In this document: positions 19,498 through 43,267 of the stretch, in pieces
How positions within the stretch are numbered: the first letter of the stretch is position 1
Layout of the letters: every line of letters begins with the position of its first letter
Assembly (NCBI GenBank): GCA_938007995.1
Contig: CALLLW010000010.1
Coordinates: 1-64,000 of the forward strand
DNA length: 64,000 nucleotides
Reading direction: 5' to 3'
Source: an uncultured Granulosicoccaceae bacterium
Lineage (GTDB): Bacteria; Pseudomonadota; Gammaproteobacteria; Granulosicoccales; Granulosicoccaceae
Notes under the pieces: generated by a model
Database searches by the model: none
Told to the model about the DNA's origin: nothing
Seen by the model: only the letters and a program-made list of their open reading frames with translations
Program-made: the position numbers and the translations under genes

Positions 19498-19500
19498 TAC

Positions 19501-20838: not shown

Positions 20839-20856
20839 TTAAAGGAGTGAAATCGA

Positions 20857-27473: not shown

Positions 27474-27649
27474 ATTACCTGAACCACTCGTCAAAAATCT
27501 CTAATACCTTTGTAGTGAACACCGTCGGGCCAACGGGATCCTTTAGAACGCTGAAGTCCATGGTGCGAACGCTACCGCCTTGTTCTACGATCACGTTTTC
27601 AAGAAAGCGCAACTCGGCGTCTTTGGTGTCGTAAGTACTATAACGGGTT
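27474..27649 (-). pseudogene. remnant of a second Tm-1-like (UPF0261) gene
   Basis: Read on the minus strand the frame gives TYDTKDAELRFLENVIVEQG, continuing SVRTMDFSVLKDP. This matches the first 45 residues of the intact Tm-1-like protein at 20857. It then joins directly to FTTKVLEIFDEWFR and a stop, matching that protein's last 15 residues. About 340 internal residues are missing, so this is an in-frame internal deletion remnant. It lies directly after the aminotransferase gene, which suggests that an intact copy once belonged to that operon. Confidence 0.8.
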
Positions 27650-28996
27650 ACTTGTCATGGCTGCATCAAGTGCTGCGATTACTTTAGCCGTTTCTGCTTC
27701 GGTAATTATAAGTGGTGGTGACAGTATGACGTTAGGGCCTGACACCCGAACCATTACACCATTGGCGCAGGTGTCGTTGTAAATTGCACCGGCGATAGCT
27801 TTGTCCGGAGCCGCTTTGGTTGTGCGATTTGATGTCAGTTCAATGGCTGTCATTAAACCGTGCCCACCACGAACGTCGCCAATGATTTCATGTTTTTCAG
27901 CCAGGGCTTTTAAGCCGTTGAACATTTGCCTGCCACGCGCTGCGGCGTTTTCATTGACTGCTAAACGTTGAGTCTCTTTGATGCATGCAACGGCTGCAGC
28001 AGCACCAACGGGATGGCCGGAATAGGTATAGCCGGATCCAATCGCACCTGCACCGGAGGTGTCTTTTTCGAACACCTCCGCCACTTTTTCATTCAGCATG
28101 ACTGCGCCAAAAGGGAAGTACCCGTTGGTAATCGCTTTTGCTGTGCACATCATATCCGGCTGCACGCCCCAGAGCCGTGAGCCTGACCAGGCACCGGTGC
28201 GCCCGTAGGCGGTAATCACTTCATCGGCGATCAGCAAGATGCCGTGTTTCTCGCAAATCGTACTTACAGCAGGCATAAAAGATTCGTGCGGTGGAATGAC
28301 ACCGCCTGCGCCGAGGATTGGTTCCATAATAAAGGCGGCGATGGTATCCGCACCTTGAAAAGCAATCTCATCTTCCAATGCTGCAATGCAAAATGCCGCC
28401 AGCTTTTCCGGGTCGGTTTCGTTAAACGGATTGCGGTACGGGTAGGGTGAGGGGATGTGGTAACACCCTGACATCAGAGGTTCGTATTGGGTACGAAAGT
28501 TGGCGTTGCCATTAATAGAAGCGCCGCCTGTGTGAGTGCCGTGATAGCCTTTTTTAAGGCTTAAGTATTTGACGCGGCCTTTTTCACCACGGAGTTTGTG
28601 GTACTGGCGTGCTAAACGAAGCGCGATCTCGATGCTATCTGACCCGCCTGAGGTAAAAAATGAACGCACCATGCCTTCAGGTTCAAAAAACTCCTGCAGC
28701 ATTTCACTCAGCTCAATCACTTTGTCGTTAGTGGTGCCGCGAAACGTAGAGTAGTATGGGAGCTCGTTTAACTGATCGGTGATGGCTTGCTTTACCACGT
28801 CACAAGAATAACCCAGGTTAACGTTCCATAACCCACCCACGGCATCAATCATTTCAGCGCCGTCAACATCGCGAATAACACAGCCTTCACCACCGGTGAT
28901 AATCGCGGGTGGTTTTGCTTTCATTTCTGCAGGGTGCGCCATCGGGTGCCAAATGTATTCAGCGTTATGGGCTTTAAGGAAGTTGGAATCTTTCAT
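27638..28996 (-). CDS. class III aminotransferase (omega-transaminase type)
   Basis: 452 residues, PLP-dependent. Motifs are WNVNLGYS, FFTSGGSDSIEIALRLARQY, the cofactor Asp in LLIADEVITAYGRTG and Schiff-base Lys287 in TAKAITNGYFPFG. Family members move an amino group from an omega-amine or beta-amino acid to pyruvate or 2-oxoglutarate. It follows the IclR gene by 4 bp on the same strand, divergent from the ALDH-TTT-P450 operon, so it is probably part of the same amine or amino-acid pathway. Confidence 0.9.
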   Translation of the reverse strand: MKDSNFLKAHNAEYIWHPMAHPAEMKAKPPAIITGGEGCVIRDVDGAEMIDAVGGLWNVNLGYSCDVVKQAITDQLNELPYYSTFRGTTNDKVIELSEMLQEFFEPEGMVRSFFTSGGSDSIEIALRLARQYHKLRGEKGRVKYLSLKKGYHGTHTGGASINGNANFRTQYEPLMSGCYHIPSPYPYRNPFNETDPEKLAAFCIAALEDEIAFQGADTIAAFIMEPILGAGGVIPPHESFMPAVSTICEKHGILLIADEVITAYGRTGAWSGSRLWGVQPDMMCTAKAITNGYFPFGAVMLNEKVAEVFEKDTSGAGAIGSGYTYSGHPVGAAAAVACIKETQRLAVNENAAARGRQMFNGLKALAEKHEIIGDVRGGHGLMTAIELTSNRTTKAAPDKAIAGAIYNDTCANGVMVRVSGPNVILSPPLIITEAETAKVIAALDAAMTSNPL

Positions 28997-29000
28997 TGCT

Positions 29001-29792
29001 TTAGTTCTCTAATCGTTTTGCCCAAATGGCGGCGATAGAAGGTGGAGTTTGTCCGCTCAGGTCGTGGCTGAGATTCTGCCCGGCGGCGACCAGTTCATTG
29101 ATACATTTATCTGCCAGCGCTGCATCCATGCGCGATGCAGGCGTTGCTATAGCGATTGTGCCCATGGCGTCGCCGCCAGGGCCAAAAAACGGCACTGCAT
29201 AGGAGACAACTTCGGCTTCATAAGACTGATCAACCGAAGCGATACCACTGGACCTGGCTTTTGCGATCAGTTTTTCTACATCGCTAATGTCTGTTGCAGT
29301 TGCTGCGGTATAACTTTCGAGATGTTGGGACAGCACACTCTGCACAAATTCTTCGTTACTGAACGCCAGCATCGCGATGCCTGATGAGGTGGCGTGAAAC
29401 GGAAGAATTTCGGCTTCATCAAAGCTGACCCGTGTGCCATGCGAGCCGGCATCTTTGGCGTAGATTGAAGTCATACCTTTCTTTTCCGGTAAGGCAGCGT
29501 GTGTCAGCTCCTGAACCCTGTCTGAAATTCTGTCGATATGGGACTTCACCGTTTTTGCCAGTGGCACTGTCTTTTCGCGAACAATCGCCAGCCGAATGAC
29601 TGCAGGCCCGAGGCGATAAGCGCGCGTGCTGTGATTCTGTTCCAGAACGCCGCAGTTGCGCAACGCAGTCAGGTGCCGGTGCAGTGTTCCCTTGTCGACA
29701 CCGGTCAGCGTTCTGAACTCGCTCAGACCGATTTCCGGATGTGCGGCAGAAAAGTGTTCTAAAAGCCCCAGTGCTTTCTCAATCGTCGACAT
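29001..29792 (-). CDS. IclR-family transcriptional regulator
   Basis: 263 residues: N-terminal helix-turn-helix (IEKALGLLEHFSAAHPEIGLSEFRTLTGVDKGTLHRHLTAL) and an IclR effector domain with FHATSSGIAMLAF and IASVDQSYEAEVVSYAVPFFGPGG. It is divergent from the ALDH-led operon, and direct repeats in the gap are its likely binding sites. It is co-transcribed with the aminotransferase. Confidence 0.92.
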   Translation of the reverse strand: MSTIEKALGLLEHFSAAHPEIGLSEFRTLTGVDKGTLHRHLTALRNCGVLEQNHSTRAYRLGPAVIRLAIVREKTVPLAKTVKSHIDRISDRVQELTHAALPEKKGMTSIYAKDAGSHGTRVSFDEAEILPFHATSSGIAMLAFSNEEFVQSVLSQHLESYTAATATDISDVEKLIAKARSSGIASVDQSYEAEVVSYAVPFFGPGGDAMGTIAIATPASRMDAALADKCINELVAAGQNLSHDLSGQTPPSIAAIWAKRLEN

Positions 29793-29820
29793 TCAACCTT
29801 GTCCTTCCCGTACTTATTAC

Positions 29821-29886
29821 TTGACAAAAGAGCGGTAGATCGACAATATCATATATTGAAACGATGGTACACTATTTGAACCGATG
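29821..29886 (+). promoter_or_regulatory. promoter and IclR-type operator of the ALDH-TTT-P450 operon
   Basis: A perfect -35 box TTGACA is at 29821-29826, followed after 17 bp by CAATAT. Downstream, TTGAAACGATG (29856-29866) and TTGAACCGATG (29876-29886) are direct repeats exactly 20 bp apart, i.e. on the same face of the helix. They overlap the likely transcription start, a good position for repression by the divergent IclR protein. Confidence 0.55.
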
Positions 29887-29903
29887 TGAATGGAGTACGT
29901 TGT

Positions 29904-31376
29904 GTGAATCAAGAACAGGTAGATCATTTTAGAGCGCAGCCTGTTGGCGCCGTCAAAATGATCATAGGTGGTGCGTCTGTTGAAGCGGCAACGGGCCGGA
30001 CTCTGGCCGTTGTCTCACCGATTGACGGCCAGAACATCGCGGCTTTGCCGAATGCCACTGAGGATGATGTTAGTGCTGCGGTTGCAGCGTCCCGCGCCTG
30101 TTTTGATAGTGCGATCTGGGCAGGCATGGCGCCTGCTGCCCGCAAGCGCGTGTTGTTGAACTGGGCTGACCTGATCGAAAAGCATGCGCTGGAGCTCGCC
30201 GTGCTTGGTGTGCGCGACAACGGCACCGAGTTGTCAATGGCACTGAAAGCAGAGCCGATGTCTGCCGCAGGCACCATCCGCTACTACGCTGAAGCGATTG
30301 ATAAGATCTATGGCGAAATCGCCCCGACTGACTCGTCTACGCTGGCGCTGATTCACAAAGAACCGGTTGGTGTGGTTGGCGCAATCGTGCCGTGGAATTT
30401 CCCGTTAATGATCAGCGCCTGGAAGATTGCTCCTGCACTGGCGATGGGCAACAGCGTTGTGTTGAAGCCCTCTGAAGTCGCTTCTTTATCTGTGCTGCGC
30501 ATGGTAGCGCTGGCGCTTGACGCCGGCCTGCCTGCAGGTGTGCTGAACGTTGTCACCGGTGAAGGGCCTGTGGTCGGACAGGCGTTGGCTAAGTCGATGG
30601 ACGTTGATGCATTGGTGTTTACCGGTTCCGGTAACGTTGGGCGTAAACTAATGGAATACGCAGCGCAGTCCAACTTAAAGCGGGTATTTCTGGAGCTTGG
30701 CGGTAAATCACCGCACATTGTTTTTGATGACACCGACGATCTGGATAAAGCGGCACAGGCGGTTGTCGGTGGGATTTTCAGAAATTCAGGGCAGGTATGT
30801 ATTGCAGGGTCGCGCTTGTTAGTGCAGGACAGCATTCATGATGCGTTTGTTGATAAGATTGTTGCGTTAACCAGAAAGATGCGCGTCGGTGATCCGCTTG
30901 ATGTGAATACCCAGATCGGCGCCGTCAGTTCGGCCGGGCATCTTGAGCATGTGTTGTCAGCGCTTGAAGGGGTTCAATCTATTGCCACCGGTGGTAACCG
31001 TCTTTTACAGGAAACAGGTGGCAGCTATATGCAGCCAACCATTGTTACCGATATGTCGGCTGACGACTCGCTGGTGCGTAATGAAGTGTTCGGTCCGGTG
31101 TTAACTGTCTCGCGATTTACAGATGAAGCCGATGCTGTAACACAGGCTAACAACAGCGAACTCGGTTTAGCTTCTGGTGTGTGGACCTCAAATCTCAGCC
31201 GTGCACATCGTATGATTGCTGCGCTGCGAGCCGGGGTGGTTCATGTCAACACTTACGGTGGTGCTGATAACACAGTGCCTTTGGGTGGTTTTAAACAGTC
31301 GGGCAACGGCCACGATAAATCGTTGCATGCGATTGATAAGTTTATCGACAAAAAAACCGCGTGGATCAAGCTTTGA
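29904..31376 (+). CDS. aldehyde dehydrogenase (PuuC-like)
   Basis: About 490 residues. Landmarks are VPWNFPLMISAWK, the catalytic Glu264 in LELGGKSP and nucleophile Cys299 in GQVCIAGSR. The closest functional style is gamma-glutamyl-gamma-aminobutyraldehyde / aminoaldehyde dehydrogenase. Start GTG 29904 has GGAG eight bases upstream; an earlier in-frame GTG (29886) lies inside the operator repeat and is rejected. It is the first gene of an operon extending to about 39199. Confidence 0.9.
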   Translation: MNQEQVDHFRAQPVGAVKMIIGGASVEAATGRTLAVVSPIDGQNIAALPNATEDDVSAAVAASRACFDSAIWAGMAPAARKRVLLNWADLIEKHALELAVLGVRDNGTELSMALKAEPMSAAGTIRYYAEAIDKIYGEIAPTDSSTLALIHKEPVGVVGAIVPWNFPLMISAWKIAPALAMGNSVVLKPSEVASLSVLRMVALALDAGLPAGVLNVVTGEGPVVGQALAKSMDVDALVFTGSGNVGRKLMEYAAQSNLKRVFLELGGKSPHIVFDDTDDLDKAAQAVVGGIFRNSGQVCIAGSRLLVQDSIHDAFVDKIVALTRKMRVGDPLDVNTQIGAVSSAGHLEHVLSALEGVQSIATGGNRLLQETGGSYMQPTIVTDMSADDSLVRNEVFGPVLTVSRFTDEADAVTQANNSELGLASGVWTSNLSRAHRMIAALRAGVVHVNTYGGADNTVPLGGFKQSGNGHDKSLHAIDKFIDKKTAWIKL

Positions 31377-31378
31377 GC

Positions 31379-32167
31379 ATGTCAAAAGCATCCGACAAAG
31401 ATCTTTATTTGTTTGAAGAGGCACAGCCTGGCAGGCTCAGTTCTGATGAGCCTGGGCCTGATGAGCCTGGGCCTGATGAGCTTGGGCCTGATGGGCTCAA
31501 CAATAGTTTTAAAAGTGAATGCCCACCGGATAAAAAGGTCAAGGTGGAAGATCTTTTCAAGTTCTCACGCGGACGCGGAGACTTGCCCGTTTCTGTGGTA
31601 GCTGCAGGTATCGCACTCTTTTTTCTTATTTTTTTCTGGACACAAACAGGATGGGACAGTCGAAAGTTACCCGATGAGCTCGGTGCCTATGTTGCGCATC
31701 AGTTCGGCATTATCGAAATCGATGGCCGCGTAACCCGACTTGGTCGAATACTAAAGCAGTCATGGGTAGCTCCGTTGTTGTGCTTACTGGTTTTGGTACC
31801 GGCAGCGCTGTGGAATCTGCGAGCCTCACTAAAGGAGCATCAATGGCGCAAGCGATTTCTGTTACCAACCAGTGCCCGCTTTGAGGTTGCAAAGTTTGCT
31901 GCGGCTTTAGAGTTCGTTGCTTACTTTATTATCTACACATTGCTGGTGCCGGTGCTCGGGTATCTGGTATCCACGCTGTTGATGGGTACCTTGCTTCCAT
32001 GGCGTCTGGGTTATCGTGGCCGCACCTGGTTTGTACGCAGCCTTGTTTCAAGTTTTGCAGTGGTGGTGGTTTTTCGCACGTTTTTGCAGATAAAAACACC
32101 CGTTTCCATTTGGCTCTACGATCAGCTTCCAACCGCGCTTCGTGGTTTCATGCTGACGTATTTTTAG
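31379..32167 (+). CDS. TctB, small membrane subunit of a tripartite tricarboxylate transporter
   Basis: The C-terminal 200 residues carry four hydrophobic segments of the TctB (DUF1468) family (VSVVAAGIALFFLIFF, WVAPLLCLLVLVPAALW, FVAYFIIYTLLVPVLGY, SLVSSFAVVVVFRTF). The N-terminal 60 residues are an unusual cytoplasmic tail with repeats DEPGPDEPGPDELGPDG made by a 15-bp tandem repeat. ATG 31379 starts directly after the ALDH stop. With TctA and TctC it imports a carboxylate using a periplasmic binding protein. Confidence 0.82.
   Translation: MSKASDKDLYLFEEAQPGRLSSDEPGPDEPGPDELGPDGLNNSFKSECPPDKKVKVEDLFKFSRGRGDLPVSVVAAGIALFFLIFFWTQTGWDSRKLPDELGAYVAHQFGIIEIDGRVTRLGRILKQSWVAPLLCLLVLVPAALWNLRASLKEHQWRKRFLLPTSARFEVAKFAAALEFVAYFIIYTLLVPVLGYLVSTLLMGTLLPWRLGYRGRTWFVRSLVSSFAVVVVFRTFLQIKTPVSIWLYDQLPTALRGFMLTYF
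31440..31496 (+). repeat. 15-bp tandem repeat inside tctB
   Basis: About 3.6 copies of a GATGAGCCTGGGCCT unit encode the pentapeptide DEPGP. The last copies are mutated (DELGP, DGL). The repeat length keeps the frame. Confidence 0.85.
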
Positions 32168-32177
32168 GGCAGGGGCG

Positions 32178-33674
32178 ATGGAGGCATTTCTCGCAGGTGT
32201 ACAAAATCTGTTGGAACCATCGGTTCTGATCGCTATAGTGATCGGTTCAGTTGGCGGTGTCATTATTGGTGCAGTACCGGGTATCGGACCTGCGATAGCC
32301 ATTGCGATATTGCTGCCTGCGACAGTGTTTCTGAATGATTTAGTCAGCCTTGTTTTACTATTGGGCGTGTACGGTTCATCCATGTATGGCGGTGCTATAC
32401 CGGCTATCTTAATCAACACGCCGGGCACACCGGTGAACGCGTTAACTACTTACGACGGTTATGCCATGACGCGTCGGGGTGAGGCTTCGCGAGCTTTGTC
32501 ACTGGCTTACTCTTCTTCATTCGTCGGTGGCTGTTTCTCAATTTGTATGGCGTTAATTGCGTTGTTTGCTTTTGGCCCTTACTTGCGTGACCTTGGCGCT
32601 CTGTTTGGTCAGCGCGATATCATGATGGCGGCGATACTGGGCGCGGTACTTCTTATCGCAGCGCATCGTCAAACGATGGGTATCGCGGCCATGCTGTTCG
32701 GCTTCGGGTTTCTTATTGCTATGGTCGGGCGGCAGTCTACCCGGGGCATTGACCGATACACGTTTGACATCGACTATCTGTATTCAGGCTTCAATCTGAT
32801 TGTTGTGATTGTTGGAATTTTTGCACTGAGTCAGGCACTGAATCTAATGGTCGGCAAAGATGACGATCCACCTGAAGCACGGATTACCGGTGGCCTTCTG
32901 AGTGGCTTTAAAGAACTTGCCGGTAAAAAAATTATCGCTGTATGCTCTGCCTGCTATGGCACGTTGATGGGTATCATCCCCGGTGTCGGTGAGTTTGTCG
33001 CGCAGTTCTTTAGCTATTCAACCGCGCGTGCGTTGTCAAAAGAACCGGCGCGGTTTGGTCATGGATCATCAGAAGGGTTGGTGGCCTCTGAAACATCTAA
33101 CAACGCCGTGCCTGCAGCGGCGATGATTCCGTTGCTTGCACTCGGTGTTCCAGGAGAAGCGCTAACGGCCATGATGATGGTGGTGTTTTTTGATGCCGGT
33201 ATAAAGCCTGGCCCCGATATATTTGAGAACAACCCCGACTTCCTGTTCAGTTTGTTTACTGCACTGTTGATCATCAATGTGCTGGTGCTTGCAACGCTAC
33301 TGTTGACAACAAAGTACATTGCCAAAATGATTTATATCCCGAACCGGTTCCTTGGTGCTTTCATCATGATTCTGGCGTTTGTCGGTGTATATTCAATACG
33401 TAACAGCCTGACCGATTGCGTCTTTGCAGTGGTGTTTGGCTTTATCGGTTATGTGTTGCGGCGCCTTGACTGGCCGTTGGTGCCCATTGTACTAGGCCTT
33501 GTACTTGGTTCGATCATTCTCGAGCGACTGACCGCCGGATCCGGTCAAATCAAATCGGCCATAGATTTAGTTAATCGACCGGTGTCGGGTAGCCTATTTG
33601 TGATGATCCTTCTGGTCATTGGATTCATCATCTGGACGTCTATAAAAAACAGACGAACCGACTATCAAAACTGA
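32178..33674 (+). CDS. TctA, large membrane subunit of the tripartite tricarboxylate transporter
   Basis: 498 residues, about 11-12 membrane helices. The TctA signature GAVPGIGPAIAIAILLP near the N-terminus is repeated as MGIIPGVGEFVAQF in the second half; AIPAILINTPGTPVNALTTYDGYAM and NNAVPAAAMIPLLALGVPG are also standard. Complete and in frame. It lies between tctB and tctC. Confidence 0.93.
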   Translation: MEAFLAGVQNLLEPSVLIAIVIGSVGGVIIGAVPGIGPAIAIAILLPATVFLNDLVSLVLLLGVYGSSMYGGAIPAILINTPGTPVNALTTYDGYAMTRRGEASRALSLAYSSSFVGGCFSICMALIALFAFGPYLRDLGALFGQRDIMMAAILGAVLLIAAHRQTMGIAAMLFGFGFLIAMVGRQSTRGIDRYTFDIDYLYSGFNLIVVIVGIFALSQALNLMVGKDDDPPEARITGGLLSGFKELAGKKIIAVCSACYGTLMGIIPGVGEFVAQFFSYSTARALSKEPARFGHGSSEGLVASETSNNAVPAAAMIPLLALGVPGEALTAMMMVVFFDAGIKPGPDIFENNPDFLFSLFTALLIINVLVLATLLLTTKYIAKMIYIPNRFLGAFIMILAFVGVYSIRNSLTDCVFAVVFGFIGYVLRRLDWPLVPIVLGLVLGSIILERLTAGSGQIKSAIDLVNRPVSGSLFVMILLVIGFIIWTSIKNRRTDYQN

Positions 33675-33699
33675 CCAATCACTCCAGAGGAATTTACAG

Positions 33700-34641
33700 A
33701 TGAAAAAAATCGCAACCGTGGCCGCTATGGCGGCTGCAACGTTTCTGGCTGGTGCAACACCCGCTTACGCTGACTATCCAGATAGCCCGGTGCAATTCAT
33801 CGTGCCATGGCCACCGGGTGATTTTGAAGACATCCTGACGCGCATGATTGCAGCAGAGTTTCAGGAGCAAACCGGTGAGTCAGCGTCAGTGGTAAACCGT
33901 CCGGGTGGTGGTGATGGACCATTCCCTGGCGCACTGGAAGTTCTTGACGGACCGACTGATGGTTCTGTTGTCGGTTCATTTGTTATTGGTGTGCCGGTTG
34001 TCGGCCCGCAGATTGATATTGGTATTGAGGCAGACAGCTTCACGCCCGTGGGTATCTTCCTGACCTATCCGTTCGTACTTGCCGCCTCCGGTGATGCAGG
34101 CTATTCCAACATGGCTGAACTCGCCGCACATGCACAGGACAACGATGTTGTATTGGGCCATTTCGGTGCCGGTTTAACACCAACTCGTGCATCGTTTGCA
34201 GCAGCCAAACTGATGGATTTTGAATTCGCAGATGATGCTGCGTTCGATCTGCTGGACTGCAACACGTTGTCGTCCGGTGATGCTGATGTGATCAACACCA
34301 CGCTTGCATTGATTGAGCCTTGTTTAGACGACATCAACGTGTTGGCTAACATTGGTAGTGACCCCATTGGCAAGCTGGACGGCGTTGAAACACTGGCGGC
34401 ACAGTCTGGTGTTAACGACATTGAATTATGGAACGGCTTGTTTGTTAAGAAAGGCACTCCGCAAGAAGTGATTGACGTGTTGGCAAAAATTGCCAGTGAA
34501 ACCATGGCTGGCGAAGAAGCACAGCAACTGATGGCTGAAACCGGTGCTCGTGTCTACTGGCAGGGTATGGAAGATTCTGCTGCACGTATTGAAGCTGATC
34601 GCGCAAAAATCGACGAACTCGATTCAATCATTGGCGAGTAA
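33700..34641 (+). CDS. TctC/Bug-type periplasmic substrate-binding protein
   Basis: 313 residues with a signal peptide (MKKIATVAAMAAATFLAGATPAYA) and the Bug fold: YPDSPVQFIVPWPPGDFEDILTRM, then VVNRPGGGDG. It differs from ordinary tricarboxylate receptors in the ligand loop (PPGDFEDI in place of PxGGxxD), and residues 185-205 contain two Cys (LLDCNTL, IEPCLDD) that could form a disulfide. A ligand cannot be named; family members bind dicarboxylates, aromatic acids or amino acids. Confidence 0.88.
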   Translation: MKKIATVAAMAAATFLAGATPAYADYPDSPVQFIVPWPPGDFEDILTRMIAAEFQEQTGESASVVNRPGGGDGPFPGALEVLDGPTDGSVVGSFVIGVPVVGPQIDIGIEADSFTPVGIFLTYPFVLAASGDAGYSNMAELAAHAQDNDVVLGHFGAGLTPTRASFAAAKLMDFEFADDAAFDLLDCNTLSSGDADVINTTLALIEPCLDDINVLANIGSDPIGKLDGVETLAAQSGVNDIELWNGLFVKKGTPQEVIDVLAKIASETMAGEEAQQLMAETGARVYWQGMEDSAARIEADRAKIDELDSIIGE

Positions 34642-34694
34642 TGTCACGAGAGTAATGTAGCTATCGAGGTGGCTGGAAACTTCCGGCCGCCCTG

Positions 34695-35465
34695 ATGTCA
34701 TTCCCTGATAACAAGACCGCATTCATGAAACGCATAAAGCTTGGAATATTGCAGACCAACCACGACAAGAGCGTTGAGGTGGGCGATGCCTTTCCTGATG
34801 ATGCTCACCGGTTTCGCGATCTTTTTGATGCGCAGAACGAAAGGTTTCAGTATCAGATTTATATGACCATCGGTGGTGAGGTTCCCAAAGCCCTGGAGGA
34901 ACAGGACGCGTTCATGATTACCGGTAGCCCACTGAGTGTGCTTGATAAGCATATTTTTACTGATGACTTATTCGAATTTATCCGTAAATGCGATGCGGCG
35001 AAAAAGCCGTTGTTAGGTGCCTGTTTTGGGCATCAGGCCATCGCTTTAGCATTAGGCGGAAAAGTGGAGCGCTCGGATGCAGGTTACAACGTTGGTATAG
35101 AGGAAACTCAGTTCCATACTCATAAAGAATGGATGACGCCACAACGCGACAGCTTACCGTTGTACGTGTTTCACGAAGATCAGGTAACGCAATTACCTGA
35201 AGGCTGTACATTGTTGGGCTCAAGCGATAAATGCAAAAACGCAAGTTTTTCAAAAGGCGATCATATTTTTACCACCCAGGCCCACCCGGAGTTTTCGCAT
35301 GAGTTTATGTCGTGCGTGCTTAAATTTACTGAAAGCAAAATGCCTGAACAGGATGCAAAAAGCGCGTGGGACAGTTTGACACTAAAACAAGATGGGCAGG
35401 TGTTTGGTACATGGTCCACTAACTTTTTTAAGAAGGCACTTAACGAGGCTGGCAACAATGCATGA
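34695..35465 (+). CDS. class I glutamine amidotransferase-like hydrolase
   Basis: 256 residues with the triad Cys110 (GACFGHQAIALALGG), His197 and Glu199 (AHPEFS) of GMP-synthase-type amidotransferase domains. No synthetase domain is attached, so it probably acts as a free hydrolase. In the Puu pathway the analogous enzyme (PuuD) removes the gamma-glutamyl group at the end. Here it is encoded beside a glutamine-synthetase-like enzyme, which supports that role by context, although its sequence is closer to GMP-synthase-like proteins than to PuuD. ATG 34725 is a plausible alternative start. Confidence 0.82.
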   Translation: MSFPDNKTAFMKRIKLGILQTNHDKSVEVGDAFPDDAHRFRDLFDAQNERFQYQIYMTIGGEVPKALEEQDAFMITGSPLSVLDKHIFTDDLFEFIRKCDAAKKPLLGACFGHQAIALALGGKVERSDAGYNVGIEETQFHTHKEWMTPQRDSLPLYVFHEDQVTQLPEGCTLLGSSDKCKNASFSKGDHIFTTQAHPEFSHEFMSCVLKFTESKMPEQDAKSAWDSLTLKQDGQVFGTWSTNFFKKALNEAGNNA

Positions 35466-36693
35466 TGATGGATTTTTAAACCTGTTGGATCACGATAGTT
35501 TTTCCAATGGAGTGCCACACGCCACATTCGCTCGCTTACGCAAAGAAGACCCGGTCTCATGGAATGATGGTGATGAAAAAACCAAAGGCTTCTGGAGTCT
35601 TACGCGCCACGCTGACATTGCTTTGGCAAATAAGGAAAACAGGATTTTCAGTTCTGCTCAAGGCATCCGTCTTGAAGATCAGAACCGTGAGGAATATCTT
35701 GCGCGTCGCACCTTTCAAGAGACAGATCAGCCTGAACATTCAGGTGTTCGTCGAACAGTAAACCCGAACTTTGCCAAACCCACTGTGGCAAAGTTTGAAA
35801 CGCTGATCCGTGAGCTAGCCTCTGATATCTGTGAGAAAGCGCTGTCGAATTCAGAGTTTGACGCTGTTGACGCCATCGCCAAACAATTGCCGATGATGAT
35901 GCTTGGCCGCATCCTGGGTGTGCCCGATGAAGATCTGAATTGGTTAGTGGAAAAGGGTGATGCATTAATCGGTAACTCAGATCCCGATTTCACCGATCAT
36001 GTGGTAGACAAAATGGATACCAGCGCTTACCGCATGATGCCGTTCCGCAGCCCCGCCGGCGTTGAGCTTTATGATTACGCGGAAGACCTGCTGCACAACC
36101 GACGCAAAGTGGCCGAAGAGGGCATCCTTGCGAAGATGATGAGCGATGAACACGGGCTGAAGGAATTAGACTTTAAGAATTTTTTCTGTCTGTTGGTTGC
36201 CGCTGGTAATGACACCACTCGTTACTCCATTGGCATGGCATTGAATCTGTTGGCACATAACACGGATTTAATAACACAGCTTAAGTCAGGTGACTATTGG
36301 GGCACCTGCGCTGATGAGTTTGTGCGGCTTGCATCTCCCACTATGCACTTTCGGCGCACTGCCACCGAGGACTTCGACTTACACGGCAAGACCATCCGTG
36401 AAGGCGATAAAGTGTTGTTGTGGTTTGTCTCTGGCAGCCGTGATGAAGAGATCTTTGATCAACCCAACGAGTGTTTGCCAGGTCGCTCACCTAATCGCCA
36501 CTTAGCTTTTGGACAAGGTGGGATTCACGTCTGTCTGGGCATGCATCTGGCAAAACTGGAAGTTCGAATTGTGCTGGAAGAATTGATAAAACGAATTGAT
36601 ACTTTCGAAGCCATAGAGGCACCCACATGGACGCGTTCCAACTTTATTTGTGGTGTAAAAAAGTTGCAAGTGCGTGCAACACGGGTGGGTTAG
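35458..36693 (+). CDS. bacterial cytochrome P450 (class I)
   Basis: About 411 residues. I-helix AGNDTTR (249-255), K-helix EFVR (Glu287-Arg290) and heme loop FGQGGIHVCLG with ligand Cys359 are all present, so it should be active. ATG 35458 overlaps the end of the amidotransferase gene by 8 bp. It requires electrons from a ferredoxin; a ferredoxin reductase (37985) and a [2Fe-2S] ferredoxin (39355) are close by. It probably hydroxylates or dealkylates an amine or its gamma-glutamyl derivative. Confidence 0.92.
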   Translation: MHDDGFLNLLDHDSFSNGVPHATFARLRKEDPVSWNDGDEKTKGFWSLTRHADIALANKENRIFSSAQGIRLEDQNREEYLARRTFQETDQPEHSGVRRTVNPNFAKPTVAKFETLIRELASDICEKALSNSEFDAVDAIAKQLPMMMLGRILGVPDEDLNWLVEKGDALIGNSDPDFTDHVVDKMDTSAYRMMPFRSPAGVELYDYAEDLLHNRRKVAEEGILAKMMSDEHGLKELDFKNFFCLLVAAGNDTTRYSIGMALNLLAHNTDLITQLKSGDYWGTCADEFVRLASPTMHFRRTATEDFDLHGKTIREGDKVLLWFVSGSRDEEIFDQPNECLPGRSPNRHLAFGQGGIHVCLGMHLAKLEVRIVLEELIKRIDTFEAIEAPTWTRSNFICGVKKLQVRATRVG

Positions 36694-36696
36694 GTC

Positions 36697-37971
36697 ATGA
36701 GCGAGATCACTCGAACACGCGCCATGTTTTGCGACATGCTTAACCTGCCACGTGGTAAGTATGTACCGGTAGATGTGGCATCAGGCGGTGCTATTGGTTT
36801 TGCCCGCGGTGTATTTGCGGTTTCATACGACCGTGATCTGGTCACAGTACCCGGTTGCGGTGTGTACGAAGGCTTGCCTGATATGGAGCTGTTGCTTGAT
36901 AACGAGCGTCGCCAATGCTGGCAATCCGGTACCGAGATAGCGCTGGGTGACTTGCATATTGATGAAGAACCTTTTGGTCTGTGCCCACGCAGTACGCTGA
37001 AACGTGCCATTAAGGCATGGACCGATTTGGGTTACAGCCCGATGATCGGGTTAGAGACCGAAGCCTTTCTGTTTCAGCGTGATCAGGATGGTGTGTGGCG
37101 ACCGTACGATACGCCCGGTGCGTTTGTTTACGGCACTGGTCCTGAAAACGATCCCAAAGGCGTGATGGATGATATCTGGGAGGCTTCTCAGCGTGCAGGC
37201 ATTCCCATTGAAAGTATGAATGGAGAATTCGACAACGGTCAGTTTGAATTAACGCTGCAATTCGATAACGCGCTAAAGGCGTGTGACGATGCGTTCCTGA
37301 TGAAAACCATGGCGCGAGAGATAGCACTTAAAAAAAACTTGTTGTTAACCTTCCTGCCGAAGCCGATTCCGGATCGCGGTGGTTCCGGCTTACATGTGAA
37401 TTTCAGTTTCTCGGATAACGAAGGCAACAACCCGATTGCACCGACTGGCGAGTTATCTGATCTGGCTAAACATTGCATGGCAGGTTTGATCCATCACCAT
37501 CAGGCGCTTGCGGGTTTACTGGCAACCACTGTCAACAGTTACGACCGCTTAGCTGCCGGTGCTATGGCAGGTTATTGGGCTAACTGGGCTGATGATCACC
37601 GATTAGTCACCACACGTTGTTCAACCAAATCAGCCAGATCGGCGCGCCTGGAACACCGCATGGCCGATTGTGCAACCAACCCTTACCAGGCAGTTGCAGC
37701 TGTACTTCAGGCGGCACGATTAGGCTTTGAAGGTAAACTGCCGTTGCAGCCGCCGGAGGATCTTGATGGTTTGGAAAACGTGCGAGAAAAAAGACATATA
37801 CCGTCCGGTCTGGATAAATCACTCAATGCGTTAGATAAAGATGTTGTGCTTCGGCAAGCGGTGGGTGAAGCCTACTGTGATGCGTTGCTATACCTAAAGC
37901 GAGACGAGTTCAAACGATTGCTTGGCAAGAGCGTTGATGATGTTCGTGATTTCTACCTACCGTTTATCTAA
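36697..37971 (+). CDS. glutamine synthetase-like gamma-glutamylamide ligase (PuuA/GlnA3-like)
   Basis: 424 residues of the GS superfamily without the regulatory adenylylation Tyr context of GlnA. Active-site strands visible are IGLETEAFLF, MNGEFDNGQFELTLQF (Glu metal ligands), GSGLHVNFSFSD, and the late LEHRMADCATNPYQAVAAVLQAA. Such paralogues join glutamate to amines (putrescine, ethanolamine, isopropylamine) using ATP. Position between the P450 and ferredoxin-reductase genes strongly links it to P450-based amine catabolism; a GS-like gene also follows P450/ferredoxin genes in mycobacterial morpholine-degradation loci. Confidence 0.88.
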   Translation: MSEITRTRAMFCDMLNLPRGKYVPVDVASGGAIGFARGVFAVSYDRDLVTVPGCGVYEGLPDMELLLDNERRQCWQSGTEIALGDLHIDEEPFGLCPRSTLKRAIKAWTDLGYSPMIGLETEAFLFQRDQDGVWRPYDTPGAFVYGTGPENDPKGVMDDIWEASQRAGIPIESMNGEFDNGQFELTLQFDNALKACDDAFLMKTMAREIALKKNLLLTFLPKPIPDRGGSGLHVNFSFSDNEGNNPIAPTGELSDLAKHCMAGLIHHHQALAGLLATTVNSYDRLAAGAMAGYWANWADDHRLVTTRCSTKSARSARLEHRMADCATNPYQAVAAVLQAARLGFEGKLPLQPPEDLDGLENVREKRHIPSGLDKSLNALDKDVVLRQAVGEAYCDALLYLKRDEFKRLLGKSVDDVRDFYLPFI

Positions 37972-37984
37972 AGAGGGTTAAACC

Positions 37985-39199
37985 ATGGCAGGTGTGATTG
38001 TCATTGGTGCGGGTCAGGCAGCTGCTTCCTTCGTTGCTAAATTTCGAAGCCTGGACGCTGACACACCGGTGACGGTGTTTGGTGACGAACCGGTTATTCC
38101 ATACCAACGTCCACCGCTGTCAAAGAAATACGCCACGGGTGAGATGGCACGGGAGCAACTTTTTTTGCGGCCCGAACAATGGTACACCGATCAAAACATC
38201 GATCTGCAAACCGGTGTTGCGGTGACATCAATCGATCGTGATGCTCGCGTAGTGCACTTATCAGATGGTTGCAGTGCAGCTTGGTCGAAGCTGGTTATCA
38301 CAACAGGTTCACGCGTGCGTGAACTGCCTGATACCTTAACTAAAGGTTTATCCGGCATTCATTACATGCGTACCCTGGCGGACGCTGATCGGTTTGGCGC
38401 TGAGCTACAGCCGACGCGTCGGGTGGTGATTGTTGGTGGCGGTTATATCGGCCTGGAAGCTGCTGCAGTGTGTGCAGCTAAAGGCTTGAAGGTCACTTTA
38501 GTTGAAGCCGCTGAGCGTATCCTGCAACGAGTTGCCTGTGCCGAAACATCAGACTGGTTCCGCAAGCTGCATCAGGCTGAAGGTGTAGAGATCCGTGAAG
38601 CTGTGGGGCTGTCTCAATTTGAGGGGCAGGAGGGCAAACTAACTGGTGCGACGCTTGCCGACGGCACTTTGATCGAAGCTGATGCTGCAGTCGTGGGTAT
38701 CGGCATTATTCCAAACACAGAGCTTGCAGCAGATTGTGATCTACAAGTTGATAACGGAATCGTTGTGAATGGTCAGTGCCAGACCAGCGATGCAGATATT
38801 TATGCAGCAGGTGATTGTGCGGTTACTGATTTTAAAGGCCTGCCAACGCGACTTGAATCAGTACCTAATGCCAGTGATCAAGCTACCGTGGCAGGCATTC
38901 ATGCCGCAACTGGTGATGTACCTGGCTATGTGGCAAAGCCGTGGTTTTGGTCAGATCAGTTCGATGTGAAGTTGCAGATTGCAGGACTGAACCGGGGTTA
39001 TACCGATGTTGTTGTGCGAGCAGGGAATACACCGCGATCAGCCAGTCACTTTTACTATGCCGATGGTCAGCTTGTGGCAATAGATGCGATGAATTCGCCA
39101 CGCGTTTACATGATTGGTAAACGCATTATTGAAGCGGGTAAAAACATCTTGCCTGAGCAAGCTGCAGATACCGAACTCGAACTTAAATCGTTGATGTAG
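37985..39199 (+). CDS. NAD(P)H-ferredoxin reductase for the P450 system
   Basis: 404 residues, FAD-dependent, of the putidaredoxin/rhodocoxin reductase group: N-terminal GVIVIGAGQAAASFVAKFRSL, YQRPPLSKKY, NAD-binding VVIVGGGYIGLEAAAVCAAKGL and the FAD motif DIYAAGDCAV. The C-terminal domain KPWFWSDQFDVKLQIAGL is typical. GAGG lies 10 nt before the ATG. It is the last plus-strand gene of the operon; the ferredoxin it would reduce is on the other strand 155 bp away. Confidence 0.92.
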   Translation: MAGVIVIGAGQAAASFVAKFRSLDADTPVTVFGDEPVIPYQRPPLSKKYATGEMAREQLFLRPEQWYTDQNIDLQTGVAVTSIDRDARVVHLSDGCSAAWSKLVITTGSRVRELPDTLTKGLSGIHYMRTLADADRFGAELQPTRRVVIVGGGYIGLEAAAVCAAKGLKVTLVEAAERILQRVACAETSDWFRKLHQAEGVEIREAVGLSQFEGQEGKLTGATLADGTLIEADAAVVGIGIIPNTELAADCDLQVDNGIVVNGQCQTSDADIYAAGDCAVTDFKGLPTRLESVPNASDQATVAGIHAATGDVPGYVAKPWFWSDQFDVKLQIAGLNRGYTDVVVRAGNTPRSASHFYYADGQLVAIDAMNSPRVYMIGKRIIEAGKNILPEQAADTELELKSLM

Positions 39200-39304
39200 A
39201 GTAAGGCATTGTCGCGTTGCTTGCAGCACCGCGCGTCCTGTTTGGACGGCGACTTTGCTGTTGGTTCTTTTTGAGCGGATGCTTTGCAGCTGATCGTTTA
39301 TAGA

Positions 39305-39346
39305 TGGCCGTTTGTGGCTGGCCGTTTGCAGCTGGCCATTTGTACC
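39305..39346. repeat. 14-bp tandem repeat, three copies
   Basis: TGGCCGTTTGTGGC (39305-39318), TGGCCGTTTGCAGC (39319-39332) and TGGCCATTTGTACC (39333-39346) follow each other directly between the convergent reductase and ferredoxin genes. Confidence 0.8.
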
Positions 39347-39354
39347 TGGGTAGA

Positions 39355-39669
39355 TCAGGACTGCTCGGCTGGAACCACAAAAGTCATCCCATCCATCTCG
39401 TCAGTGACCTTGAGCTGGCATGACAGGCGGGAGTTATCCCTGGCTTCCCACGCGAACTCGAGCATGTCGCTTTCCATACCTTCGACCGCCGGCAGATCGG
39501 CACCTTCCTCCACATAGACATGGCAGGTTGCACAGGCACAAGCGCCGCCGCATTCAGCAGTGATCCCGTCTATGCCGTTGTTGACGGCAGCTTCCATCAC
39601 AGACAGTCCGACGGCGACTTCAACCTGATGAGTCGAACCATCAGCAAGGAGAAAATTAATGGTAGGCAT
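39355..39669 (-). CDS. [2Fe-2S] ferredoxin (P450 type)
   Basis: 104 residues of the adrenodoxin/putidaredoxin class. The cluster ligands lie in ECGGACACATCHVYV (C-x5-C-x2-C) and SRLSCQLKV. It would carry electrons from the neighbouring reductase to the P450. It is transcribed away from the hpa operon and convergent with the reductase, so its expression may be set by the palindromes at 39694-39880. Confidence 0.92.
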   Translation of the reverse strand: MPTINFLLADGSTHQVEVAVGLSVMEAAVNNGIDGITAECGGACACATCHVYVEEGADLPAVEGMESDMLEFAWEARDNSRLSCQLKVTDEMDGMTFVVPAEQS

Positions 39670-39889: not shown

Positions 39890-40276
39890 GTGCCTCATTT
39901 TCACATCGAGTACTCAGCCAACCTCGAAAATCAGGTCGACTTTGGCGAGTTGTGCGAACGCATTCGTGTTGTCGCTGCAGAAATCGACACCTTCCCGACC
40001 GCAGGCATTCGGGTACGGGCCACAAGAGTTGATCATGTAGCAATCGCAGATGGTAACGCCAAACACGGCTTCATCGATTTATCGATACGGCTACGCGAAG
40101 GCCGACCGCAGGCGGTAAAAGAAGAGGCGGTTGCACAGGTCTTCGCCGCTTTAAAAAATTTTATAGCACCGGCAATGGAAACGCACTCTATTGCCTTGTC
40201 TGCAGAAATGCGTGACATCGATGCCACCCTGTCCCCCAAGTTCGGCAACATCCGTGACCACATGGAGTCTACTTAA
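39890..40276 (+). CDS. hpaF: 5-carboxymethyl-2-hydroxymuconate delta-isomerase
   Basis: 128 residues starting MPHFHIEYS; Pro2 is the catalytic base in this tautomerase-superfamily enzyme. Further family matches are RATRVDHVAIADG and GFIDLSIRLREGR. It isomerises the ring-cleavage acid in homoprotocatechuate degradation. The start is GTG 39890. Its stop overlaps the hpaE start (TAATG), the first of several couplings in this operon. Confidence 0.9.
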   Translation: MPHFHIEYSANLENQVDFGELCERIRVVAAEIDTFPTAGIRVRATRVDHVAIADGNAKHGFIDLSIRLREGRPQAVKEEAVAQVFAALKNFIAPAMETHSIALSAEMRDIDATLSPKFGNIRDHMEST

Positions 40277-41787
40277 TGAGTGCACTTGACGACAACATCC
40301 GCAAGCTATCCGCACATCTGGAACGCTTCAAAAAAACCGGTATCCAGAATCGTATTGCTGGTAAAGATACGCCGGGTGGAGCAGGCGTGTTCCAATCGGT
40401 AACACCGGTTGATAAATCTTTTATCTGCAATGTTGCACAGGGTACCCGAGCCGACATTGATGCCGCCGCAAATGCTGCCCACGATGCATTCGCTGCATGG
40501 CGCGATATGCCCGCAGGCGAACGCAAGAAGACCCTGATCCGAATTGCTGAAGGAATAGAAGCACGCGCAGAAGAAATCGCACTGTGCGAGTGCTGGGATA
40601 CCGGGCAGGCTTATAAATTCATGTCAAAGGCCGCATTGCGTGGCGCAGAAAACTTTCGCTATTTTGCTGATCAGGTGGTGCAGGCACGGGATGGTCAGCA
40701 CCTGAAGTCTCCTACGTTAATGAACATCACCACACGTGTACCGATCGGGCCGGTTGGTGTCATCACTCCGTGGAATACGCCATTTATGTTGTCGACATGG
40801 AAAATCGCGCCAGCTCTGGCCGCCGGTTGCACCTTGGTGCACAAGCCTGCTGAAGCATCACCACTCACAGCGCGACTATTGGTTGAAATTGCTGAAGAGG
40901 CAGGCTTACCACCCGGGGTGTTGAATACCGTTAACGGCTTTGGTGAAGAAGCGGGTAAAGCGCTGTGCGAGCATCCAAAGTTAAAAGCTATCGCGTTCGT
41001 TGGTGAGTCGCGTACCGGTAGCCTGATCACCAAACAGGGTGCGGATACGCTAAAACGTAACCATCTTGAGCTGGGTGGCAAGAACCCCGTTATTGTCTTT
41101 GATGACGCGGATCTCGATCGTGCACTGGACGCTGCAATTTTTATGATCTATTCGATTAATGGCGAACGTTGTACGTCATCGTCACGCCTGTTAATACAGG
41201 ATACCGTGCGCGAAGAGTTCGAAGCCAAACTGATCGAGCGTGTTAACAACATTATAGTGGGTCACCCGCTTGATCCTGCCACCGAGATTGGTCCGCTGGT
41301 GACTGAAGAACATTTTAACAAGGTTACCAGCTACTTTGATATTGCTAAACAGGATGGCGCTACTGTTGCGGCGGGTGGTGTTACTGTGGGCGATGAAGGC
41401 TACTTTGTTCGTCCAACCTTATTTACCCGGGCTAATAATCAAATGCGTATATCGCAGGAGGAAATCTTTGGCCCTGTGTTAACGTCGATACCATTCAACA
41501 CTGAAGAAGAAGCACTGCAAATTGCCAATGACATTCCGTATGGACTAACCGGCTATGTCTGGACCAACGATTTAACCCGTGCACTACGTTTTACCGATAA
41601 GCTTGAAGCCGGGATGATCTGGGTGAATTCTGAAAACGTGCGTCATCTTCCCACACCTTTTGGTGGTGTTAAGGCTTCCGGTATTGGTCGTGATGGCGGT
41701 GATTGGTCGTTCGAGTTTTATATGGAACAAAAACACATTGGCTTTGCCACCGGTCAGCATAAAATTACCAAACTGGGAGCACTATAG
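40276..41787 (+). CDS. hpaE: 5-carboxymethyl-2-hydroxymuconate semialdehyde dehydrogenase
   Basis: 503 residues, ALDH superfamily. ITPWNTPFMLSTWKIAPAL, LELGGKNPVIVFDDADLDRALDA and Cys299 in GERCTSSSR mark the HpaE group. It oxidises the semialdehyde made by HpaD ring opening, using NAD. Between hpaF and hpaD with no gaps. Confidence 0.93.
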   Translation: MSALDDNIRKLSAHLERFKKTGIQNRIAGKDTPGGAGVFQSVTPVDKSFICNVAQGTRADIDAAANAAHDAFAAWRDMPAGERKKTLIRIAEGIEARAEEIALCECWDTGQAYKFMSKAALRGAENFRYFADQVVQARDGQHLKSPTLMNITTRVPIGPVGVITPWNTPFMLSTWKIAPALAAGCTLVHKPAEASPLTARLLVEIAEEAGLPPGVLNTVNGFGEEAGKALCEHPKLKAIAFVGESRTGSLITKQGADTLKRNHLELGGKNPVIVFDDADLDRALDAAIFMIYSINGERCTSSSRLLIQDTVREEFEAKLIERVNNIIVGHPLDPATEIGPLVTEEHFNKVTSYFDIAKQDGATVAAGGVTVGDEGYFVRPTLFTRANNQMRISQEEIFGPVLTSIPFNTEEEALQIANDIPYGLTGYVWTNDLTRALRFTDKLEAGMIWVNSENVRHLPTPFGGVKASGIGRDGGDWSFEFYMEQKHIGFATGQHKITKLGAL

Positions 41788-42771
41788 ATGCCTGTACCAG
41801 CACCGAACCTGTACCCTGATTTTAATACAATCCGTTTGAGCCACGTGTGTTTGAACATCGCGGATCTTGCCGCTTCAAAAAAATTCTATACAGAAATTCT
41901 GGGGCTTCAGGTTACTGACGAAACTGACAGCCATATATATTTGCGCGCTATGGAAGAGCGTGGCCATCACTGCGTGATACTACAAAAGTCAGATCAGCCT
42001 GGCACAGTTGAAGTGATGGGATTCAAGACCTTCGACGAACAGGATCTGGATAAAGCGGAAGTTTATTTCAAGGCCAAAGGTCGCCCGACTCAATGGGTTG
42101 AACGTGCTTACCAGGGTAAGACTTTACTGACCTCTGATAACATGGGCATTCCGCTGGAGTTCTATCACAAGATGGATCGACTTGAGCCTATACACCAGAA
42201 GTATGCGCTTTATCGTGGTGTAAAGCCGCTGCGAATTGACCACTTTAATTGTTTTAGTCATGATGTTGATGCGTCGGTGGCGTTCTATTCTGACTTTGGC
42301 TTCCGCGTTACCGAATACACTGAAGACGAAGACACTAAAAAACTATGGGCAGCATGGATGCACCGCAAAGGTGGTGTCCACGACATGGCTTTTACCAATG
42401 GTACCGGCCCACGTATGCACCATGTTGCGTTTTGGGTGCCAACGCCGTTAAACATTATCGACCTTCTTGACTTGATGGCAACAACAGGCTACGTCGATAA
42501 TATTGAGCGTGGTCCCGGTCGTCACGGTATTTCCAATGCATTCTTTTTGTACATTCTTGACCCGGATGGTCACCGGATTGAAATTTATTGTTCAGACTAT
42601 CAAACAGTCGATCCTGATCTTGAACCGATCAAATGGGATCTAACCGACCCGCAGCGTCAGACACTATGGGGCGCTGCCGCGCCGGAAAGCTGGTTCAAAC
42701 ACGGAACAACTTTCGTTGGTGTGGATACCAAAGACTCTGAAATCAAAGCCAGTCCTATTATTGCTCCATGA
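41788..42771 (+). CDS. hpaD: 3,4-dihydroxyphenylacetate 2,3-dioxygenase (homoprotocatechuate dioxygenase)
   Basis: 327 residues, type I extradiol dioxygenase with two vicinal-oxygen-chelate domains. Metal ligands are His152 (RIDHFNCF), His211 (RMHHVAFWV) and Glu265 (HRIEIYCSDY). It cleaves the aromatic ring of homoprotocatechuate at the 2,3 bond. It starts directly after the hpaE stop, and its own stop overlaps the start of a decayed gabD-like gene. Confidence 0.93.
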   Translation: MPVPAPNLYPDFNTIRLSHVCLNIADLAASKKFYTEILGLQVTDETDSHIYLRAMEERGHHCVILQKSDQPGTVEVMGFKTFDEQDLDKAEVYFKAKGRPTQWVERAYQGKTLLTSDNMGIPLEFYHKMDRLEPIHQKYALYRGVKPLRIDHFNCFSHDVDASVAFYSDFGFRVTEYTEDEDTKKLWAAWMHRKGGVHDMAFTNGTGPRMHHVAFWVPTPLNIIDLLDLMATTGYVDNIERGPGRHGISNAFFLYILDPDGHRIEIYCSDYQTVDPDLEPIKWDLTDPQRQTLWGAAAPESWFKHGTTFVGVDTKDSEIKASPIIAP

Positions 42772-43266: not shown

Positions 43267-43267
43267 A

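Follow-up and report, generated by a model that had tools for sequence, protein, structure and literature searches.

A conserved amidotransferase, cytochrome P450 and glutamine synthetase-like gene unit that may serve the gamma-glutamylation of aromatic amines

Which pathway is served by a cytochrome P450 gene that is placed between genes for an amidotransferase and a glutamine synthetase-like protein? The question is raised by a 64,000-nucleotide stretch of DNA, here called the window, which covers positions 1 to 64,000 of contig CALLLW010000010.1 (assembly GCA_938007995.1) from an uncultured Granulosicoccaceae bacterium. The three genes follow each other on the plus strand and encode a proposed class I glutamine-amidotransferase-like gamma-glutamyl hydrolase (GAT, 34695..35465), the P450 (35458..36693) and a glutamine synthetase-like amine ligase of the GoaS type (GSL, 36697..37971). 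A previous sequence-only reading had suggested that the island around them performs the roles of the Puu pathway of Escherichia coli, with the P450 in place of the flavin oxidase. The results presented here suggest instead that the architecture is that of the aniline systems, in which glutamine synthetase (GS), glutamine amidotransferase (GATase) and oxygenase genes are combined, with a P450 as the oxygenase. Our tentative interpretation is that the three genes tag, oxidise and untag an aromatic amine, most likely of the aryl-ethyl type, on its way into homoprotocatechuate cleavage.

Relatives were collected with a P450 scan of genome contigs, which yielded 34 loci, and with a GSL search in 48 genomes from the order, which yielded 17 matches at an E-value of 1e-60 or better, including the window's own. 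Two P450 hits that were unlike the rest were dropped along with six duplicates, and plasmid records were added, which gave a synteny set of 48 distinct loci. Short loci (L001-L017) were swapped for longer stretches of the same genomes, and the counts exclude the window itself, the two P450 hits of 29-30% without a GSL (L050, L051) and a locus with an amidotransferase only (L054); L045 contains undetermined bases. Most loci were found via the P450, the presence of which is thus given by construction, whereas the finding of GSL and GAT next to it is free of this bias. GSL is adjacent on the same strand in 45 of the 46 P450-bearing loci, and GAT adjoins the P450 in 42; of the four loci without an adjacent GAT, one (L065) is cut by a contig end. 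The recurrence of the P450/GSL adjacency leads us to reject the P450 as a chance neighbour, and the sequence data provide solid evidence that the three genes are a real conserved unit. The earlier claim that the P450 is co-conserved with the ligase stands for these loci, but fails in two of the 17 genomes of the order identified by their GSL, while the P450 neighbours GSL in the other 15. The pairwise distances of GSL, P450 and GAT correlate (r 0.89-0.94, 35 loci), as expected for genes that are inherited together, which is no proof of function.

GSL (PF00120, E 5e-74) retains the residues for binding of ATP, metal and glutamate: E129, E131, E212, E220, H269, R321, R339, R344, R355, E357 and R359. 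The positions of Asp50, Ser53, Tyr179 and Glu327 are occupied by Ala, Thr, Val and Met, and Asp50 and Glu327 of the ammonia site are thereby lost; the numbering and the residue roles are those of the Salmonella enzyme. The comparisons disregard the row of L044. NpaA1, DcaQ and PuuA likewise lack Asp50 and Glu327, and the combination of a preserved GS catalytic core with the loss of these two residues places GSL in the GoaS type. Organic-amide synthetases have lost the catalytic Asp50 and a residue of the Glu-flap, and the consulted part of the source reports none that uses ammonium (PMC11335346). In the phylogeny, which leaves out a glutamine-synthetase fragment on C72 (L083) and a second GS from SAR116, 46 core GSL rows form a clade of their own (support 100/100) with E. 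coli GlnA outside; the order in which the long outgroup branches join is uncertain. Ordinary GlnA was rejected as an identity based on the residues and the tree, in agreement with the earlier view of GSL as a paralogue apart from GlnA, and its sequence makes it likely that GSL is an amine ligase. Among the reference proteins, PuuA is the best match (31% identity, E 1e-50), followed by DcaQ (3e-32), NpaA1 (4e-29) and GlnA (8e-27). Replacement of Trp235 in NpaA1 by alanine abolished its activity, according to the portion of the study consulted (PMC11335346). At the corresponding position, immediately after E212, the compared core GSLs have a Phe or Tyr, while PuuA has an Ala, and an aromatic amine is therefore weakly indicated as the substrate. 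Phe75 and Phe86 in the NpaA1 tunnel have no aromatic counterpart in GSL.

The hydrolase is one point at which the window departs from the Puu pathway. GAT matches the aniline-operon proteins DcaT (E 1e-22) and NpaA2 (2e-22) but not PuuD (0.033), and scores 63.7 bits with PF00117 and 20.3 bits with the Peptidase C26 model, just under its cut-off of 20.5. A PuuD-type hydrolase was rejected on these grounds. The catalytic triad, Cys110, His197 and Glu199, is invariant in all 21 aligned sequences, and the best match in PDB is gamma-glutamyl peptidase 1. GAT is thus likely to be a gamma-glutamyl hydrolase, consistent with the earlier description of a free class I amidotransferase that releases the product. 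As in the aniline systems, this AtdA2-like amidotransferase adjoins a ligase and an oxygenase, and because GAT resembles the aniline-operon hydrolase rather than PuuD within such a GS-GATase-oxygenase unit, the genes appear to represent an aniline-type architecture and not a modified Puu pathway. The GATase of the aniline system keeps gamma-glutamylanilide at a tolerable level by hydrolysing it, and NpaA2 is not needed for the conversion, as stated in the part of the article consulted (PMC11335346). By analogy, GAT may act as a safety valve instead of, or besides, releasing the product.

The open reading frame (ORF) of the P450 (PF00067) could start at 35392, but the alignment of its relatives begins at the conserved ATG at 35458. 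The nearest solved chains are of the CYP125, CYP268 and CYP126 types, and the AGN[D/E]TTR motif and the haem cysteine correspond to invariant positions in the alignment. Its putative redox partners are a ferredoxin reductase (37985..39199, plus strand, PF07992 and PF14759), which is 31% identical to an FAD-dependent oxidoreductase on a Streptomyces canus plasmid, and a [2Fe-2S] ferredoxin (39355..39669, minus strand, PF00111) with a C-x5-C-x2-C ... C pattern in its translation.

A short way downstream of the core, the window contains plus-strand genes for the isomerase HpaF, the dehydrogenase HpaE and the 2,3-dioxygenase HpaD (39890..42771), and for an HpaG-like FAA hydrolase (PF01557) and the hydratase HpaH (43268..44919). 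HpaE (752.5 bits, cut-off 638), HpaD (408.5, cut-off 321) and HpaH (TIGR02312, 372, cut-off 351.5) are all above the curated cut-offs for their equivalogs, and HpaF is above the cut-off for PF02962 (134 bits, cut-off 26.5) but below that for its NCBIfam model (67.8 bits, cut-off 215). The genes are thus predicted to perform the meta-cleavage of homoprotocatechuate (3,4-dihydroxyphenylacetate). HpaD is present in 15 of the 46 P450 loci of the synteny set. A survey of the flanks in 49 loci (48 with a GSL hit, the window not counted, L023 replacing its duplicate L022 and L088 added) included 38 with a flank of at least 10 kb, and 15 of these wide loci contain HpaD and 18 contain HpaD or catechol 1,2-dioxygenase. 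Distant forms of HpaD escape the query used in the survey; that of Streptomyces is known from the annotation of the S. canus plasmid, where GSL, P450, ferredoxins, the FAD-dependent oxidoreductase and a 3,4-dihydroxyphenylacetate 2,3-dioxygenase are found together. Loci with Hpa genes near the core bear the titles Rhodobacteraceae, Rhizobiaceae and Granulosicoccaceae. A catechol 1,2-dioxygenase-type gene is located beside the core in three SAR116 loci and annotated beside P450-GSL in Novosphingobium sp. EMRT-2. Five loci (L020, L023, L025, L026 and L033) contain a DOPA-decarboxylase-like gene (PDB 7xin, E 6e-109) near the Hpa genes, with HpaD on one side of it and HpaG on the other in L023 and L026. 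Nine of the 46 P450 loci contain an aminotransferase of class III that is related to PRK06148 (472 bits, under the cut-off for the model) and is presumably a phospho-lyase; it adjoins an APH-type kinase in at least four loci (L028, L031, L038 and L049). Such an aminotransferase/kinase pair could strip beta-hydroxylated aryl-ethylamines, octopamine for example, of their phosphate and amine.

Because HpaD, the DOPA-decarboxylase-like gene and the PRK06148-related aminotransferase recur nearby, we place the core in the breakdown of aryl-ethylamines. The gene identities, the amine-ligase-type active site, the intact hydrolase triad, the conserved GAT-P450-GSL order and the neighbouring Hpa module are read from the sequence, and from them we infer the individual reactions, their order, the hydroxylation of the ring and the substrate. 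In this pathway, which we favour while giving it slightly less than an even chance, GSL would consume ATP to link the amine to the gamma-carboxyl group of glutamate. Supplied by the ferredoxin reductase and the ferredoxin, the P450 would then hydroxylate the tagged molecule, probably on the ring, with dealkylation as an alternative. The glutamate tag would both remove the free amine, which would otherwise serve as a ligand of the haem iron, and add a carboxylate handle. GAT would hydrolyse the gamma-glutamyl amide and free the amine, which the class III aminotransferase (27638..28996) and the aldehyde dehydrogenase (ALDH, 29886..31376) would turn into an arylacetate, to be opened as homoprotocatechuate by HpaD, HpaE, HpaF, HpaG and HpaH. 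A tyramine-like compound is our reasoned guess for the substrate. For genomes without HpaB, the simplest P450 step would be the conversion of tyramine to dopamine, both in their gamma-glutamyl forms, while O- or N-demethylation fits the genomes with HpaB just as well. The window's own genome, which is 91.5% complete, speaks for the pathway in that HpaB (PF11794) was not found in it, in a search that did not extend to other aromatic hydroxylases.

The presence and absence of HpaB provide no more than a hint that the P450 core and HpaB avoid each other. Within the 48 genomes of the order, HpaB is above the cut-off in two of the 17 with GSL versus 11 of the 31 without (Fisher p 0.10). When only HpaD-bearing genomes are considered, the numbers are one of 14 versus nine of 20, a fragile difference that is uncorrected for relatedness (p 0.024). 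Two doubtful genomes can undo it: p is 0.07 if G007, with HpaB and a piece of HpaD below the threshold at a contig end, is counted, 0.05 if G029, which shows stops inside HpaB, is dropped, and 0.13 with both changes.

Several observations weigh against the aryl-ethylamine pathway. The genomes G009 (L061) and G007 (L068) have TctC directly followed by GSL, with neither GAT nor P450 there. G009 carries HpaF, HpaE, HpaD and HpaG beside this pair and G007 carries HpaE and part of HpaD; the P450s elsewhere in the two genomes are only 26-28% identical, and the gap between TctC and GSL in L061 contains a ten-residue stretch with a weak match to GAT (E 0.65). TctABC is by family a carboxylate importer. 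With the queries used, neither HpaD nor catechol dioxygenase was found in 20 of the 38 wide loci, and HpaD is not significantly enriched in the genomes of the order with the core (14 of 17) over those without (20 of 31; Fisher p 0.32). The window contains no DOPA-decarboxylase-like gene, and its own genome has a single match to PF00282 (99.9 bits, over the Pfam cut-off). Finally, a clear HpaB, with the family checked on one, is present in five core-bearing loci (L020, L032, L044, L047 and L048), and the P450 is therefore not needed for that hydroxylation there.

The genes around the core bear on the alternatives. All genes named in the earlier reading are present within 27638-39669 and were correctly placed, but this interval is too narrow since it misses the Hpa genes at 39890-44919. 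Upstream on the minus strand are the class III omega-aminotransferase of the PRK07481 subfamily (PF00202, E 4e-91; NF005683, 711.7 bits, cut-off 575), with 5lh9, an omega transaminase, and 6s54 as its nearest solved chains, and an IclR-family regulator (29001..29792, PF01614/PF09339), which is divergent from ALDH and scores 117 bits with the PcaR/PcaU/PobR model TIGR02431, under the cut-off of 284.75. The plus-strand order is ALDH, TctB, TctA, TctC, GAT, P450, GSL and ferredoxin reductase, with successive gaps of -16, 10, 25, 53, -8, 3 and 13 nt. The three Tct genes (31361..34641) match PF07331, PF01970 and PF03401, TctB slightly below the Pfam cut-off (28.6 bits versus 29.1). Since the gaps are short or overlapping, with the ATG of the P450 overlapping the stop of GAT in a tight GAT-P450-GSL run, the genes on the plus strand are likely to be co-transcribed. 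Consensus promoter matches number 11 in the sequence, below the mean of 19.5 in shuffles, and are uninformative. Neither a PuuB-type flavin oxidase nor a Rieske dioxygenase was found among the scanned ORFs of the island, where the P450 occupies the place of the latter; a DAO-family gene at 19501-20838 is located outside it. That gene is part of a second amine-like cluster (14809-24122) with GntR, DHDPS-family, ALDH, MttB-family methyltransferase, DAO-family oxidase, UPF0261 (Tm-1-like) and OYE-family oxidoreductase genes. Relatives (72-77%) of its OYE and UPF0261 genes are found near the core in L058 and L063, and UPF0261 (Tm-1-like ATP-binding) genes are found near it in 13 of the 46 P450 loci (L020, L044, L045, L046, L052 and others). 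The end of the window (62373-63962) encodes a ferredoxin-domain protein that resembles DmmA of dimethylamine monooxygenase.

A P450 version of the Puu pathway would begin with the gamma-glutamylation of an aliphatic amine. The P450 would then turn the product into a gamma-glutamyl aldehyde by dealkylation or hydroxylation, the PuuC-like ALDH would oxidise this aldehyde, and release would fall to the amidotransferase. Such a version appears unlikely, even though GSL is closer to PuuA than to DcaQ, NpaA1 or GlnA, and ALDH is 48.5% identical to E. coli PuuC. ALDH reaches only 531 bits with the PuuC equivalog model (cut-off 850), the hydrolase does not resemble PuuD, no PuuB-type oxidase was found in the island, and the genes that recur next to the core are for aromatic ring cleavage, indicating an aromatic amine that feeds homoprotocatechuate cleavage. 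Nor do the presumed Puu partners accompany the core as GAT does: ALDH is found in 17 and the aminotransferase in 18 of the 46 P450 loci, many of which have cut flanks, and in the 33 loci with at least 8.5 kb upstream of GSL the numbers are 16 and 17. The proposed Puu roles were thus not upheld. A ring-attached amine, perhaps with a carboxylate side chain imported by TctABC, might alternatively be gamma-glutamylated and then hydroxylated by a P450 that replaces the Rieske dioxygenase. Such an aniline-type substrate, which we consider improbable, is in line with the GS-GATase-oxygenase architecture seen on pJS3066 and pC1-1, with the catechol 1,2-dioxygenase-type genes in SAR116 and Novosphingobium, and with the Phe or Tyr at the Trp235 position, but dioxygenation of an anilide to catechol is not a P450 reaction, Phe75 and Phe86 of the NpaA1 tunnel lack aromatic equivalents, and the homoprotocatechuate genes, the DOPA-decarboxylase-like gene and the class III aminotransferase are better suited to side-chain amines.

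The transporter suggests yet another substrate, a carboxylate compound imported by TctABC and unrelated to homoprotocatechuate, in which case GSL, GAT and P450 would share an operon with TctABC but no pathway with the Hpa genes. TctC (33 of 46) and TctA (30 of 46) are found in more P450 loci than HpaD, although flank lengths differ, and the TctC-GSL pair persists in the two genomes without GAT and P450. Still, the recurrence of Hpa genes near the core in loci with three different family titles, and of a distant HpaD beside the Streptomyces GSL-P450 pair, makes this explanation quite improbable. Very unlikely, finally, is a morpholine/piperidine-type route, in which a secondary or cyclic amine is opened by the P450, with the GS-like protein helping to handle the nitrogen. 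Gulosibacter has GS genes that are numbered beside pipA/morA-like P450 and ferredoxin reductase genes (438/437/436 and 3052/3051/3050), but an amidotransferase is not mentioned for these clusters in the part of the source consulted (PMC9477822). The P450 of the window is nearest to solved chains of other types, in a comparison that CYP151 sequences are outside of, and the neighbouring genes are aromatic.

The aryl-ethylamine pathway would not be restricted to the lineage of the window. Records with the core bear the titles Rhodobacteraceae, Planktomarina, SAR116 and Granulosicoccaceae. Because the sister of the window sequence in the GSL tree is titled Rhodobacteraceae (support 99/83) and the GSL clade is present in only two of 321 genomes of the class sample, one of which is the window's own, the core has likely been transferred between classes, a conclusion to be taken with caution as many of these records are metagenome bins. 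More distant forms include Ruegeria sp. TM1040 (P450 55%, GSL 47%), Novosphingobium sp. EMRT-2, with P450-GSL and no GAT found within the stretch, and Novosphingobium humi, with GAT-P450 and no GSL found. The P450/GSL pair extends as far as a Streptomyces plasmid (38%/32% identity), with GSL at 32-35%, P450 at 38% and no GAT found on the S. canus and Embleya plasmids. A GS-GAT-P450 run beside an AraC regulator was also identified on a Sagittula stellata plasmid (L073, 8873-12180). Its GS is much diverged (22-26% identity), and with salicylyl-CoA hydroxylase-type and ring-hydroxylating genes nearby the run is perhaps a separate P450 arylamine system. In the SAR116 loci L041, L042 and L043, a second GS paralogue, a GMC oxidoreductase, a sulfatase-family gene and an intradiol catechol dioxygenase surround the core. 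In L024-L028, the genes near the core code for a 348-amino-acid protein that matches no Pfam family, a nitrososynthase-related protein with an acyl-CoA-dehydrogenase fold and, except in L026 where it was not seen, an alpha/beta hydrolase.

It is possible, though less likely than not, that the core represents a third class of gamma-glutamylation catabolism beside Puu, with its flavin oxidase, and the aniline type, with its Rieske enzyme. A removable glutamate tag would let a P450 accept aryl-ethylamines, so that amines resembling tyramine or dopamine could enter homoprotocatechuate cleavage. Several marine lineages, and actinomycetes with a diverged version, would use this route, and the P450 would take over from HpaB where the latter is lacking. 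If so, the P450 would join the oxygenases known to act on gamma-glutamylated amines, and there would be an explanation for how it could escape blockage by the primary amine that it oxidises. The finding would also identify how aromatic biogenic amines can be processed in seawater, and would suggest testable functions for genes that carry the annotations "glutamine synthetase family", "amidotransferase" and "cytochrome P450".

Among the known systems, the aniline and 1-naphthylamine operons (AtdA, TdnQTA, DcaQTA and NpaA) share with the window a GS-like ligase, a class I amidotransferase and an oxygenase in one operon, the loss of the same Asp50 and Glu327 from the ligase, and significant similarity of GAT to NpaA2 and DcaT. 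They differ in having a two-subunit Rieske dioxygenase rather than a P450 and ligases only 27-29% identical to GSL, and in the window homoprotocatechuate genes follow the core. The E. coli Puu pathway is similar in its GS-like ligase, its PuuC-like ALDH, the role of its gamma-glutamyl hydrolase and its class III aminotransferase, 25% identical over the compared part of PuuE, but the window has no detectably PuuD-like hydrolase and no PuuB among the island ORFs, while it does have a P450 and aromatic ring-cleavage genes. By the tests made on its sequence, the island would not be a member of the Puu group. The homoprotocatechuate pathway (HpaDEFGH) agrees with the window in HpaD, HpaE and HpaH, although here the module would be fed from the P450 route, with HpaB not found in the genome itself. 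In the pip and mor clusters for piperidine and morpholine, too, a GS gene is numbered next to genes for a P450 and a ferredoxin reductase; the substrates of these clusters are N-heterocycles, and the consulted part of the source mentions no amidotransferase (PMC9477822). The combination of GS and P450 alone is therefore not new, since GS genes beside P450 genes have been published for these piperidine/morpholine-like clusters. For a system of GS, GATase and P450, no description was found in the consulted open-licence literature, which most subscription journals are outside of. As judged from these genes, what appears to be new is the P450 as the oxygenase in the known GS-GATase-oxygenase architecture.

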